Assembly: GCA_001314865.1 (NCBI GenBank)
Contig: LJZR01000002.1
Span: 124,001 to 188,000, forward strand
Length of the DNA: 64,000 nucleotides
Direction: 5' to 3'
Source of the DNA: Phormidesmis priestleyi Ana
GTDB taxonomy: Bacteria > Cyanobacteriota > Cyanobacteriia > Phormidesmidales > Phormidesmidaceae
The notes beneath the pieces were generated by a model. It was not told the origin of the DNA. It ran no database searches and saw only the letters and a list, made by a program, of their open reading frames with translations. Made by a program: the position numbers and the translations under genes. Shown piece after piece: positions 8,232 to 26,907 of the stretch. Numbering within the stretch: position 1 is the stretch's first letter; every line of letters starts with the position of its first letter.

Positions 8232-8317
8232 ATGGCAGGATTTTAGATGGCAGGATTTTAAATGACAGGATTTTAAATGACAGGATTTTAGATGACAGGA
8301 TTTTAGATGACAGGGTA
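8232..8317. repeat. 15-bp tandem repeat, 5 units plus partial, between GMC gene and topA
   Basis: Units of ATG(G/A)CAGGATTTTA(G/A) start at 8232, 8247, 8262, 8277 and 8292, with a partial unit at 8307. Every unit contains ATG and most contain TAG or TAA in phase, so it does not code. Confidence 0.92.
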
Positions 8318-21873: not shown

Positions 21874-22404
21874 TTATTGGGCGGCCTGCTGAGCAAAATA
21901 CTCCGGCGCTAGTAGCGACATCAAAGCCATTGACTCATAGCCAGTCGCTGTTTTATAGCCATCTCTGATGATGCCTTCTAAAACAAAGTCTTCGCTTTCG
22001 TAAAGTGCTTTTGCGCGCGAATTTTTGAGCACAACATCTAGCCAGAGTCGGTGACAGCCATACTGCTCAAACGCTAGCGCTTTTGCGAGCCGAAGCGCCT
22101 GCCTACCGTAGCCTTTCCCTTTTTGGGTGATGACGATTCGCTTGATCCCCAGTGATAAATCAGGGTTTGTGATTCCGGTTAAAATGACGTAGCCTAAGCG
22201 CTGAGGGAATTCAGTAGCGCTACGTGTGACAATTGTGACAATGTAATGGGCTTCTTCTGAGGATGCGATCGCAGCTTTATGACGAGCTTTAGACCACTGG
22301 CCGATATAGCGAGCATTTTCAGGGGCTTGCTCAGTAGCCACTACAAAATCAAGATCTGAGATAGCTGTTGGCAGTAGGCTAAGGCGATTGGTCGTAAGAA
22401 TCAT
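21874..22404 (-). CDS. GNAT-family N-acetyltransferase (RimJ/RimL-like)
   Basis: 176 residues. The opening LTTNRLSLLPTAISDLDFV is typical of RimL-like acetyltransferases. The acetyl-CoA loop appears as QKGKGYGRQALRLA, and LDVVLKNSRAKALYESEDFVLEGIIRDGYKTATGYESMALMSLL is the conserved C-terminal half. It would transfer acetyl from acetyl-CoA to an amine, either a protein N-terminus or a small molecule; the acceptor cannot be told. The gene is single and convergent with argF. Confidence 0.85.
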   Translation of the reverse strand: MILTTNRLSLLPTAISDLDFVVATEQAPENARYIGQWSKARHKAAIASSEEAHYIVTIVTRSATEFPQRLGYVILTGITNPDLSLGIKRIVITQKGKGYGRQALRLAKALAFEQYGCHRLWLDVVLKNSRAKALYESEDFVLEGIIRDGYKTATGYESMALMSLLAPEYFAQQAAQ

Positions 22405-22870: not shown

Positions 22871-22894
22871 ATGCTTAGCTTCTGGGAAATATCT

Positions 22895-23785
22895 ATGAGC
22901 GTAGAGCAAAGTCCAGAAGATGGGTTAGATCCGCGCCCCGCCCCGACAACATTGGATCAGCCGCTAGCCTTAGAGCCAGTTTTAGATCAGCCAGTTTTAG
23001 ATCAGCCAGTTTTAGATCAGCCAGTTTTAGATCAAAAAGTTGCTCTAGTCACTAGCAGCGCTCCAGGAATCTGCGCTGATACGGCTATGCAGTTGGCCAG
23101 GGCAGGCGCCAAGGTGATTGTCTGTGGGCGCAATGCCAATCAGGGGTTGGCTACCGTGAAGCAGATTCGCCGTGAAGGCGGTAGAGCAACCTTTGTGCTG
23201 GCCGATATTGCGATCGCTGCCGACATTCAGGCAGTGATTGATGAAACCATTGCCACCTATGGCCGGTTAGATATTTTGTTCAACAACGTGAGCAACAGCT
23301 ATGCCCGAGATAGTGTGCTCATAGATGTGTCCGAATCGATTTGGGATCGACTCGTTGAGCCATTGCTCAAGGGCACCTTTTTTTGCTGTCAGTACGCACT
23401 GCCCTTTTTGCAGCAGTCTAGCGGTGGCACTATTATCAACCTCATTGAGAAAACGCCCCAGAGTCACAACGATTCTGTCTTAACGATTTGTCAGGGAGGC
23501 GTTTTGGCCTTGACAAGTGCGATCGCTCAGCAGTTTCCTCCTCACACCGTCACCGCCAACCTCATCTGGGCTATCTCGGCCGCTGAATCTACAAATCCTG
23601 CCGACGCGGGTATGGCAGGTAGTTCGAGCGCTCTCCCTTCAGCAACCAGTAGCTTACTGCTCTCCCCTGTGCTGACGGGGCCACCTACCGAAAATCGTCC
23701 CTTTGCTGACGTTGCCGAAGCTGTGATGTATTTAGCCTGTCACGGTAGTACCTTGCATGGCGCAGCGCTTTTGATTCGTCCCTGA
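22895..23785 (+). CDS. Short-chain dehydrogenase/reductase-like protein lacking catalytic residues
   Basis: 296 residues from ATG 22895; an in-frame ATG eight codons earlier is the alternative. Residues 28-47 are four PVLDQ repeats coded by 15-bp units. The SDR fold follows: KVALVTSSAPGICADTA, then VCGRNA, LADIA and GRLDILFNNVSN. The key residues are changed. TGxxxGxG reads T53-S-S-A-P-G-I-C60, NNAG reads NNVS (130-133), and the YxxxK pair aligns with Leu196 and Gln200 in LTICQGGVLALT. The Ser of the triad is also absent. It may be a non-catalytic SDR-fold protein that binds a ligand or partner, or a gene losing its function, yet the frame is intact. Confidence 0.8.
   Translation: MSVEQSPEDGLDPRPAPTTLDQPLALEPVLDQPVLDQPVLDQPVLDQKVALVTSSAPGICADTAMQLARAGAKVIVCGRNANQGLATVKQIRREGGRATFVLADIAIAADIQAVIDETIATYGRLDILFNNVSNSYARDSVLIDVSESIWDRLVEPLLKGTFFCCQYALPFLQQSSGGTIINLIEKTPQSHNDSVLTICQGGVLALTSAIAQQFPPHTVTANLIWAISAAESTNPADAGMAGSSSALPSATSSLLLSPVLTGPPTENRPFADVAEAVMYLACHGSTLHGAALLIRP
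22976..23035. repeat. 15-bp tandem repeat, 4 units, inside the SDR-like gene
   Basis: CCAGTTTTAGATCAG occurs three times exactly, and a fourth time with one final base changed; it codes PVLDQ repeats. Confidence 0.93.
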
Positions 23786-23852: not shown

Positions 23853-24536
23853 TTACTTTTCTTCTAGGTCTGTGGCTTCTCGGTCTGCGGCTTCTAAGTT
23901 TGCGGCTTCTGGATCTACGGCTTCTGGATCTACTGCTTCTCGGTCTGCGGCTGAAGCGTTGATTTCTTCCGACAAATTATATTCCCCAGTCCATACTGCC
24001 GTCAGCAGCGCCAGCCCTTGCTGGGTCAATATGGCTTCGTCCTCGCTGATCTCTACATCATCAGGATCACCACCGGCTGCTTCAATTAAGTCGCTCATCC
24101 ATATGTAGCAGGGGGTTGCTTCTTGGCGTAACAGCTGTTCTAGCCGCATCTGTTTTGCCAAGGGCAGCCTTCTTTGCAGCAGTACATACAGTGGCACGTT
24201 AGTGCGATGCTCTACGCCACCCAATACTTGCTGCAAGTACCAGGTTGCCTCAGCTGGACTGAGTTCTTCTAGCCGCTGCTCGGTGCGCCGTAAAATACGC
24301 TTTACAAAATCAATACCCAAGTAGGTGTTGAGGTACTCGGCTGGCAGGTCAGGATCGACTTCTACGCGCTCACAAATGCTTTGCCAGTCCACGTTAGGAT
24401 AGGCTGCTTTCAGCTTTTCAAAAGCCAGGTCGCTAATCTGAGCCGAGGCGCTCTGCATGTCATACGAAAAATCTTCTCCTGGCTTGGCTCCTGCGCCTAC
24501 CAGCATCCGAAAAAGTTCAACTGCACTGTCAGCCAT
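23853..24536 (-). CDS. Protein of unknown function with repeat-coded acidic tail
   Basis: 227 residues, soluble and mainly helical by appearance. Residues 1-190 contain LRRTEQRLEELSPAEATWYLQQVLGGVEHRTNVPLYVLLQRRL and SDLIEAAGGDPDDVEISEDEAILTQQGLALL. I recognise no family. The last 30 residues are six degenerate copies of a five-residue unit (A-D/N-x-E-A) coded by 15-bp repeats at 23861-23950, so the acidic tail seems to have grown by duplication. It is convergent with the SDR-like gene, with 67 bp between the stops. Confidence 0.75.
   Translation of the reverse strand: MADSAVELFRMLVGAGAKPGEDFSYDMQSASAQISDLAFEKLKAAYPNVDWQSICERVEVDPDLPAEYLNTYLGIDFVKRILRRTEQRLEELSPAEATWYLQQVLGGVEHRTNVPLYVLLQRRLPLAKQMRLEQLLRQEATPCYIWMSDLIEAAGGDPDDVEISEDEAILTQQGLALLTAVWTGEYNLSEEINASAADREAVDPEAVDPEAANLEAADREATDLEEK
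23861..23950. repeat. 15-bp tandem repeat, 6 units, at the 3' end of a coding region
   Basis: Six contiguous units close to CTTCTCGGTCTGCGG, diverged at several positions, all keeping the frame. Confidence 0.9.
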
Positions 24537-24636: not shown

Positions 24637-25587
24637 CTAAGCGGCTTGGTCATCCCGATAAGCCGCATACACCGCATTGACGTTGTACCAGTTTAAAAAC
24701 ACTCGGCTCAGTTCTTGCGACAGCTGCGGATAACCCTGGCTAATGAGCCAGCGCAGCATAGGCTCCATGGTGCGTTCGTTGAGCAGTCCGCCCAGCGATA
24801 GTGAACCCCAAAGGATACGATGTAGCACTGTCATTTGAATCATCAGTCGCACATCTAAGGTGGGATGCTTTTTGTAAAACACCACACCCATTCTCGCCCG
24901 CTGAATTTCTTGATCGATCAGCTTAGGCAACTCCTCGGTTGAAAATGCTGGATGCCAGTGATAGCCAACTGCCTCCGGACATTTGATCAGCGATAGGCCG
25001 TTGTTTTTGAGCCGCACGCCTAGCTCCAAGTCCTCCCAGCCGTATTGTGTAAACTGGGCGTCAAATAGTCCTGCTTCTAGCAGCCAGCGCTTAGCGATCG
25101 CGACATTTCCGGTCGCAAAAAAGGCTCTCGAATAGTCTGTTACCTTAAAGGGCTCAGCAGTTGGATTCTCAAAATTGCAGGTGTTCACCACTCGGCCATA
25201 GGTAAAGACGCGCTCATTACCCTGCGCATAGGCTTTAGAGAGCGCATCAGCGTGGTACTGCAAAAAGTCGTTTAGTACGACCAAATCGCTGTCAATAAAA
25301 ACAATGGTATCGCCTTCAGCTTTTTGAACACCGAAGTTTCGAGCGATCGCAGCGCCCTCATGAGCCTGTTCGTACAGCTTCACATGCTTAAGTTCATTCG
25401 CGCTAGCGCGAATCCATTCCACCGTGCCATCGGTCGAACCATCATCCACCAGCACGACCTCATAGCCCTCAACCAAATAGCCCTCAACCGAGCCATCTGC
25501 CCGGAGTACCTGATTTTCCATTGCTCGCAGGCATTTTTCTAAAATTGGCCTGCGATTATAGGTTGGAATAACAACGCTGAAGAACAT
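24637..25587 (-). CDS. Family 2 glycosyltransferase
   Basis: 316 residues. It opens with FFSVVIPTYNRRPILEKCLRA, has VVLVDDGSTDGTVEWI for the nucleotide-sugar site, and VFIDSDLVVLND as the metal-binding DxD region. AGLFDAQFTQYGWEDLELGVRLKNNG is the conserved acceptor-side block, with the ED catalytic pair. No membrane segment is seen, so it probably acts on the cytoplasmic face. Sugar and acceptor are unknown. A 15-bp duplication codes YLVEGY twice at about residues 38-45. Confidence 0.88.
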   Translation of the reverse strand: MFFSVVIPTYNRRPILEKCLRAMENQVLRADGSVEGYLVEGYEVVLVDDGSTDGTVEWIRASANELKHVKLYEQAHEGAAIARNFGVQKAEGDTIVFIDSDLVVLNDFLQYHADALSKAYAQGNERVFTYGRVVNTCNFENPTAEPFKVTDYSRAFFATGNVAIAKRWLLEAGLFDAQFTQYGWEDLELGVRLKNNGLSLIKCPEAVGYHWHPAFSTEELPKLIDQEIQRARMGVVFYKKHPTLDVRLMIQMTVLHRILWGSLSLGGLLNERTMEPMLRWLISQGYPQLSQELSRVFLNWYNVNAVYAAYRDDQAA

Positions 25588-25707: not shown

Positions 25708-26907
25708 ATGGGTCGCGCAGATAAAGTTGTTTTGGCATATTCAGGTGGTGTTGATACCACCGTCTGCATTCCGTATCTCAAAGCAGAGTATGGCGTCAAA
25801 GAAGTTATTACCCTAGCCGCCGATTTAGGACAGGGCGACGAGCTAGAGCCGATTCGTCAAAAAGCGCTCACATGCGGTGCCTCGGAGTCTGTGGTGACCG
25901 ATGTGACGGAGCCTTTCATCACTGACTATGCCTTTCCGGCGATTCAGGCCAACGCGCTTTACGAAAACCGTTACCCGCTCTCTACTGCGCTGGCTCGTCC
26001 CCTAATCGCCAAGCTGCTAGTAGAAACGGCCGCCCAGTATGGCGCAGATGCAGTCGCTCACGGCTGTACAGGGAAAGGAAACGATCAGGTGCGGTTTGAC
26101 GTGGCGATCGCAGCCCTCAACCCAGACTTGAAAGTGCTTGCCCCTGCTCGCGAATGGGGCATGAGCCGTGAAGAAGCGATGGCCTATGGTGAAAAATTTG
26201 GGCTGACCTTCCCGGTTAAAAAGTCCTCGCCTTACAGCATCGACCGCAATTTGTTAGGCCGATCAATTGAAGCAGGGCCGCTAGAAGATCCTTGGACTGA
26301 GCCGACCGAAGAAGTGTTTGTGATGACCCGTGCGATCGCCGACACACCTGACGAACCCGAGTATGTCGAAATCGGCTTTGAAAAAGGCATTCCCGTTAGC
26401 CTCAATGGCAACGCCCTGAGCCCAGTCGCCCTGGTTTCCCAGCTCAACGAAATCGTCGGTCGTCATGGCGTTGGCCGCATTGACATGGTTGAAAATCGCC
26501 TTGTCGGCATCAAGTCGCGCGAAATTTATGAAGCGCCTGCTCTTCTCGTGCTGATTCATGCCCACCGTGACCTCGAAAGCCTCACCCTCACTGGCGATGT
26601 CACCCAGTACAAACGCAATATCGAGCAGTCTTACAGCCAAATGATCTACAACGGCCTATGGTATAGCCCGCTCAAAGCCGCACTTGATGCCTTTATTGCT
26701 CAAACGCAGACACGCGTATCGGGCACCGTTAAGGTTAAGCTGTTTAAGGGCAATGCCATCATCGCGGGTCGCAAGTCAGAAAACACGCTTTATACAGATG
26801 AACTTTCCACCTATGGCGCCGACGATAAGTTCGACCATAAGGCCGCTGAAGGGTTCATTTACGTATGGGGCCTGCCAACTCGGGTATGGGCACAAAAAAC
26901 GCGCTAA
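25708..26907 (+). CDS. argG: Argininosuccinate synthase
   Basis: 399 residues, usual length. The N-type ATP pyrophosphatase loop is [16 protein letters not shown], with a Val where many enzymes have Leu. [14 protein letters not shown] and [15 protein letters not shown] follow, the citrulline/aspartate-binding blocks. It condenses citrulline and aspartate using ATP. With argF upstream it covers two consecutive steps of arginine synthesis. The start ATG has no strong ribosome site. A long inverted repeat follows about 60 bp after the stop. Confidence 0.96.

Follow-up and report, generated by a model that had tools for sequence, protein, structure and literature searches.

A pseudoenzyme family with an SDR fold at one cyanobacterial locus, probably non-catalytic and kept by selection

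Introduction

What keeps a short-chain dehydrogenase (SDR) gene in a genome once the residues of its active site have been replaced? The question is raised by a reading frame, here called pSDR, in the cyanobacterium Phormidesmis priestleyi Ana. We analysed a stretch of 64,000 nucleotides (the window), to which all coordinates refer unless another locus is named. pSDR lies at 22895..23785 on the forward strand, from ATG 22895 to TGA 23785, and encodes 296 amino acids; an alternative in-frame ATG at 22871 gives a protein of 304. An earlier sequence-only reading had reported an intact frame over 296 codons, and translation confirms its coordinates and residues.

Non-catalytic SDR-fold proteins or domains exist elsewhere, namely human HSDL1 and the pseudo-ketoreductase part of animal fatty acid synthase. 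They belong to other lineages and other contexts.

The SDR mechanism uses an Asn-Ser-Tyr-Lys tetrad (PMC11614110). The tyrosine alone can be replaced: BcSDR, a 'divergent' SDR of Burkholderia cenocepacia, still binds NADP (PMC11614110). NmrA, HSCARG and MAT2B are named as SDR-fold regulatory proteins in PMC3793261.

An SDR fold without the SDR catalytic set

By descent and fold pSDR belongs to the classical SDR superfamily. It matches the Pfam models adh_short (E 1.1e-29) and adh_short_C2 (5.2e-25), with KR also at E 0.001. The same threshold gives 194 NCBIfam models, the best 25 of which are all SDR models with scores well short of the curated cut-offs, together with 476 different PDB sequences (best E 3e-24). 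AlphaFold2 models were obtained for the window protein (pLDDT 82, pTM 0.78; core mostly above 90, residues ~231-270 low) and for the relative from strain PCC 7375 (pLDDT 86, pTM 0.89). The first matches classical SDR crystal structures (top Z 30.8) and the second classical SDRs in Foldseek (E 2.9e-19). Both models predict an intact SDR fold, as the sequence-only reading had supposed, and they lean to this fold because intact SDRs were part of the input alignments.

The SDR core starts at residue 45. Residues 1-44 form a tail, modelled with low confidence, which is partly encoded by a 15-bp tandem array (22974..23034, forward strand; 4.1 copies, 100% matches) that reads as VLDQP repeats. This repeat tail was not seen in the frames of the relatives. 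The window as a whole is rich in tandem arrays of 12-15 bp (64 TRF rows, for example 2626-2700, 8232-8314, 22974-23034 and 23861-23952), some of which lie in coding frames and add peptide repeats to protein ends. A scan for promoters and terminators gave six promoter-like sites, with 2.7 expected.

The motif columns were placed in a MAFFT alignment of 81 sequences, including 70 other SDRs, with the intact SDR L014 as reference row. In this alignment TGxxxGxG reads TSSAPGIC (residues 53-60; 23051..23074, forward strand like all motifs given here). Its three glycines correspond to Ser54, Gly58 and Cys60; the first (Gly1) has become Ser and the third (Gly3) Cys, while Thr53 and the second (Gly2) are kept. 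NNAG reads NNVS (Asn130-Asn131-Val132-Ser133; 23282..23293), with both asparagines kept. The catalytic Tyr is replaced by Leu196 (23480..23482), the catalytic Lys by Gln200 (23492..23494) and the catalytic Ser by Glu185 (23447..23449), in a shortened loop. These replacements agree with the sequence-only reading, which had noted the missing Ser and gave no replacement for it. Two further losses were found: the tetrad Asn (N-x-x-G, helix alphaE) is Leu157 (23363..23365), and the PG that should follow beta6 is missing. At beta6, before the place of this PG, stands a family signature, NLIW (residues 222-225; 23558..23569; 7/7 in the family alignment). The earlier statement that every catalytic element is changed thus holds for the tetrad and is slightly too strong for the cofactor motifs, because Gly2 and both asparagines of NNAG remain.

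One family at one locus

The changes are common to a family of proteins. Profile searches covered 63 genomes of the window's taxonomic family, and the order comprises the same 63 genomes. They gave ten full-length pSDR members including the window's, from three genera of this one cyanobacterial family: four from the window's Phormidesmis genus (g1), one from g4 and five from the Adonisia/PCC 7375 genus (g3). One extra fragment, cut by a contig end, was found in genome G015 in a search of 58 relatives. By matching coordinates, eight of these sequences lie on contigs with names: Leptolyngbya sp. BC1307, Phormidesmis priestleyi ULC027bin1, Phormidesmis sp. RL_2_1, Vasconcelosia minhoensis LEGE 07310, Leptolyngbya sp. 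PCC 7375, Adonisia turfae CCMR0081, Leptolyngbya sp. Heron Island J and L. cf. ectocarpi LEGE 11479.

In the alignment none of the ten full-length members has kept Ser, Tyr, Lys or Gly1, so the sequence-only reading's question whether orthologs share the losses is answered by nine other proteins. A private loss in the window strain was considered and is rejected on the same count. Gly1 is Ser or Ala throughout, and each member has lost one of Gly2 and Gly3 as well. The tetrad Asn is kept in a single full-length member, that of Vasconcelosia, and in the G015 fragment. Hence neither the TGxxxGxG motif nor the Asn-Ser-Tyr-Lys tetrad of a functional classical SDR is found in the family. The other 70 SDRs keep Lys without exception and Tyr and Ser in 69 cases. 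The exception, L065 (4001-4738 of that locus), is an SDR from an alphaproteobacterial Baikal MAG with Val for Tyr, Gly for Ser and Thr for Asn, and with Lys kept; it is a second divergent SDR and falls outside the pSDR clade.

Loss is concentrated at the catalytic and the nicotinamide/pyrophosphate positions, and the Rossmann core and adenine-side residues are kept. Across 45 canonical SDR positions, the ten catalytic or pyrophosphate/nicotinamide-side ones are kept in a mean of 2.0 of the ten members and the 35 others in 7.0, in a grouping drawn post hoc from the column table with 3 of 48 rows (C-terminal end) dropped. Positions that survive in no more than one member number seven among the ten and 5 among the 35. 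Thr53, Asp104, Asn130, Asn131 and Ala132 touch the cofactor and were counted among the 35; moving them by hand gives a contrast of about 4.4 versus 6.6 of ten members. All ten members keep Thr53, Ala64, Ala68, Ala72, Gly84, Asp104, Gly123, Asn130, Asn182, Thr207, Asn222 and Ala274. New residues have also become fixed: Phe171 and Leu223 occur in 10/10 members and in 0/57 other SDRs, Gln166 in 9/10 versus 1/57. The C-terminal region is poorly conserved, is modelled with low confidence and varies within g1; in the genus of strain PCC 7375 the C-terminus is conserved.

The ten members form one clade with support 100/100 in an 80-row tree, from which the partial sequence L015 was left out. They do so again (100/99) without the motif columns and the stretch from Ser to Lys, in a 69-row tree that omits 12 of the 81 rows (L015 and 11 others, most of them long-branched). 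This pattern would follow from a single ancestral loss of catalysis. In both trees the intact rows with the shortest path to pSDR come from a clade of intact cyanobacterial SDRs (L013, L014, L018, L163-L172), although support for the branch that joins the two is weak.

A class-wide draw of 388 genomes, with seven candidates scored per genome, returned 34 genomes with a match at E 1e-45. They are those of the same ten members (E 1e-87 or better) and 24 with a match that is not a family member (E 3.9e-46 to 2.9e-61). Thirteen of these 24 matches were aligned, and all motifs are intact in every one. Outside the family, the highest-scoring profile matches come from the intact cyanobacterial clade (E about 1e-46 to 3e-61), which differs from pSDR in its intact motifs and in its gene neighbours. 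It was not found at the pSDR locus: its 13 loci, with about 1.5 kb of flank on each, match only SDRs among 10 reference proteins. A glutamine-synthetase-like and/or a class-I amidotransferase-like (peptidase C26) gene often adjoins the intact SDR (flanks of L014, L163, L164, L165, L167, L168 and L171). By gene names assigned by eye, these flanks look like a gamma-glutamyl amine pathway cluster.

The pSDR genes share one genomic place. The order argG-GT2-N227-pSDR-(GNAT and/or the short gene Lipo)-map is conserved over g1, g3 and g4, and the copies are therefore orthologous by place. In the window the convergent neighbour is N227 (23853..24536, reverse strand), a conserved cyanobacterial protein without a match in Pfam or NCBIfam. 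Beyond it lie GT2 (24637..25587, reverse strand), a family 2 glycosyltransferase, and ArgG (25708..26907, forward strand), which we take to be argininosuccinate synthase; all three are conserved in synteny. The other flank of pSDR carries a GNAT acetyltransferase gene (21874..22404, reverse strand), as it does in some relatives; in the window an ornithine carbamoyltransferase gene comes next, in the place of map. N227 itself was present in 20 of 23 related genomes searched and carries its own 15-bp repeat array at the C-terminus.

pSDR is cleanly absent from the same site in G001, G002 and G006 (g1) and in G028 (g3). Hence the gene is dispensable. At the three g1 loci (L149-L151) there is no recognisable pSDR remnant, and the flanking genes nearly touch around N227/map. 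Finding pSDR at one site in three genera points to a gene that their ancestor already had and that some lineages later lost. Genomes that lack pSDR at this site still have N227, GT2 and map, so that no neighbour is an obvious partner. A functional tie of pSDR to N227, GT2, map or GNAT is unsupported, because these genes occur without it.

Purifying selection on pSDR

If the active site is gone, is the gene still constrained? The ratio omega (dN/dS) was estimated with our own script under a one-ratio codon model, for nine of the ten members (L044 of G061 was left out); synonymous changes between genera are saturated. Omega is 0.100, and omega = 1 is rejected (2dlnL 726). Under the same model N227 has 0.091, SDR2 (an intact SDR beside map) 0.102, GT2 0.058, Map 0.038 and ArgG 0.057.

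The sequences within g3 are less diverged, and there omega is 0.057 for pSDR, 0.097 for SDR2 and 0.078 for N227. Within g1 the values are 0.195, 0.093 and 0.098, so that selection on pSDR is about two-fold weaker than on its neighbours. The window branch alone has an omega of 0.19, which does not differ from the background (2dlnL 0.01) and differs from 1 (2dlnL 14.97). pSDR is therefore constrained in both groups, less so in the window's genus. Purifying selection, with omega between 0.06 and 0.20, is clear, and the dN/dS comparison that the sequence-only reading had proposed comes out well below 1, window branch included.

Thus pSDR shows two of the marks of a pseudoenzyme: homology to an enzyme family with the catalytic residues lost, and conservation under purifying selection. 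As far as these sequences can tell, pSDR is very probably not catalytic by the SDR mechanism and is under selection, as the sequence-only reading had proposed; the shared losses, the lack of a Tyr-Lys pair and an omega below 1 all support it. The usual hydride transfer is not expected, because Tyr, Lys and Ser are all gone.

What may pSDR do?

Catalytic residues are lost in all members and the gene is nevertheless kept by selection, which makes a binding or regulatory role probable. On balance we favour the reading that pSDR, which belongs to an SDR-fold pseudoenzyme family restricted to one lineage, is non-catalytic and acts by binding as a regulatory or scaffold subunit. After an ancestral loss of catalysis, pSDR would work without SDR-type hydride transfer. 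Its retained core and the helices alphaE and alphaF would most likely serve to build an oligomer, either of pSDR alone or mixed with an active SDR. Some adenine-nucleotide binding may persist through the retained Asp104, Asn130 and Thr53. Against this reading speak the clean absence of the gene in four genomes, the weaker selection in g1, a frame-shifted C-terminus in one g1 member, the poorly conserved C-terminal region and the lack of an obvious partner among the neighbours.

Helix alphaE is part of the subunit interface in classical SDRs. In pSDR it spans residues 147-174 (23333..23416) and carries a QYALPFLxxS signature, with 11 of 28 columns identical in at least nine of the ten members. 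Conservation of the core and of alphaE, while the former active site varies freely in g1, agrees with a protein acting through its surface. That pSDR acts by oligomeric or protein contact is a serious possibility, which we hold tentatively. More speculative, and rather unlikely, is a bolder version in which pSDR, as a new family of regulatory subunits, either caps an active SDR of its own cell, for example one of the FabG type, or joins it in a hetero-oligomer. In this version the two sub-lineages would have evolved different replacement pockets (Glu196/Arg200 in the Adonisia/PCC 7375 genus, Gln200 in the Phormidesmis genus), so that the dead active site would have been rebuilt twice, for a non-redox ligand.

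A first alternative is a sensor of the NmrA/HSCARG kind, which would bind NAD(P) without turnover and signal the redox state to a partner. The adenine-side residues speak for it, since Asp104, Asn130 and Thr53 are invariant and Ala132 is found in nine of ten members. NAD(P)-sensing SDR regulators have precedent (PMC3793261). In addition, CGR follows beta2 in members from g1 and g4, and a basic residue at this place can favour NADP (PMC11614110). The glycine loop argues the other way: besides the family-wide change of Gly1, the two sub-lineages differ in whether Gly2 or Gly3 is lost, as expected if pyrophosphate binding is unselected. Furthermore, at E 0.001 only adh_short, adh_short_C2 and KR match in Pfam, and NmrA does not. 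The comparison with NmrA-like sensors made in the sequence-only reading is therefore not supported, and with its altered glycine loop such sensing by pSDR is possible and disfavoured; we consider it unlikely.

Alternatively, the active site may have been repurposed for other chemistry or another ligand by new residues. In g3 the places of Tyr and Lys are taken by Glu196 and Arg200 in 5/5 members, the Ser loop is 0.90 identical, and the part of the gene after NLIW has an omega of 0.020. In addition, one classical-fold SDR still binds NADP with Leu in place of Tyr, and another base has been proposed for it (PMC11614110). However, the g1 members and Vasconcelosia have no Glu/Arg pair (Leu, Ala, Asn or Ile occur with Gln or Arg), and the Ser loop is only 0.18 identical within g1 and g4. 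Hence no common active site is visible. BcSDR moreover keeps the glycine motif and Lys, and the pSDR proteins do not. Repurposing thus seems distinctly unlikely.

Could the frame merely be surviving in a gene that has lost its function? Slow decay would explain the patchy absence of pSDR, the weaker selection and variable C-terminal part in g1, and the repeat-driven N-terminal growth in the window protein. It would also suit genome G004, where a 15-bp PVEQR repeat shifts the C-terminal frame (L010, 1240-1480) and the usual C-terminus continues in another frame; this frameshift may be an assembly error. The L010 row keeps the shifted C-terminus in the alignment, the first tree and the column counts, and was cut before the shift for omega. 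Against decay stand omega values of 0.057 to 0.195 (a value of 1 is rejected in the overall fit as well as for the window branch), losses that are selective by position, new residues fixed family-wide, and a frame intact in 9/10 full-length members over long divergence. A decaying gene is rejected as the main reading, given omega below 1 and the shared losses, and we regard it as improbable.

That pSDR is an ordinary active SDR misread through misalignment is hardly credible despite its strong SDR-family scores, since the 81-sequence alignment places each motif, no column of the family alignment has an invariant Lys, and the window protein has no Y-xxx-K anywhere, so that the alternative Tyr-Lys pair considered in the sequence-only reading is absent.

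Discussion

We thus prefer to see pSDR as a non-catalytic binding subunit, and the known systems nearest to it each differ in a definable way. Classical SDRs of the FabG and glucose 1-dehydrogenase types (PF00106/PF13561) share the fold, the core length and many core residues. Unlike them, pSDR lacks Ser, Tyr and Lys in 10/10 members and the tetrad Asn in 9/10; its glycine loop is remodelled, its Ser loop shortened and its PG not intact. BcSDR also has Leu for the active-site Tyr, a change conserved across an order, but it keeps TGxxxGxG, Lys, Ser and Asn and binds NADP (PMC11614110). pSDR is not a divergent SDR of this kind, in which Tyr is replaced and the glycine motif and Lys remain, since Lys and Gly1 are each kept in 0/10 members. 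In NmrA, HSCARG and MAT2B an SDR core is likewise thought to act by protein contact and not by turnover; they bind or sense NAD(P), and MAT2B even keeps YxxxK and Ser (PMC3793261), whereas pSDR has no NmrA Pfam match.

SDR pseudoenzymes and regulators are thus already known. What is new here is the combination of tetrad and glycine-loop changes at one cyanobacterial locus. A search of open-licence papers found no description of the pSDR family, and a classical-SDR clade in which tetrad and glycine loop are changed together, at one locus in one cyanobacterial family, is apparently undescribed.

Family scores would give pSDR the annotation 'SDR oxidoreductase', which is almost surely wrong. In pSDR the catalytic set and the standard glycine loop are lost and selection stays, whereas the SDR regulators named in the cited literature keep dinucleotide binding. 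Because the losses occur under selection and intact relatives are available for comparison, pSDR offers a tractable case of an enzyme turned binder in named cyanobacterial genomes, those of Leptolyngbya sp. PCC 7375, Vasconcelosia minhoensis and Adonisia turfae.
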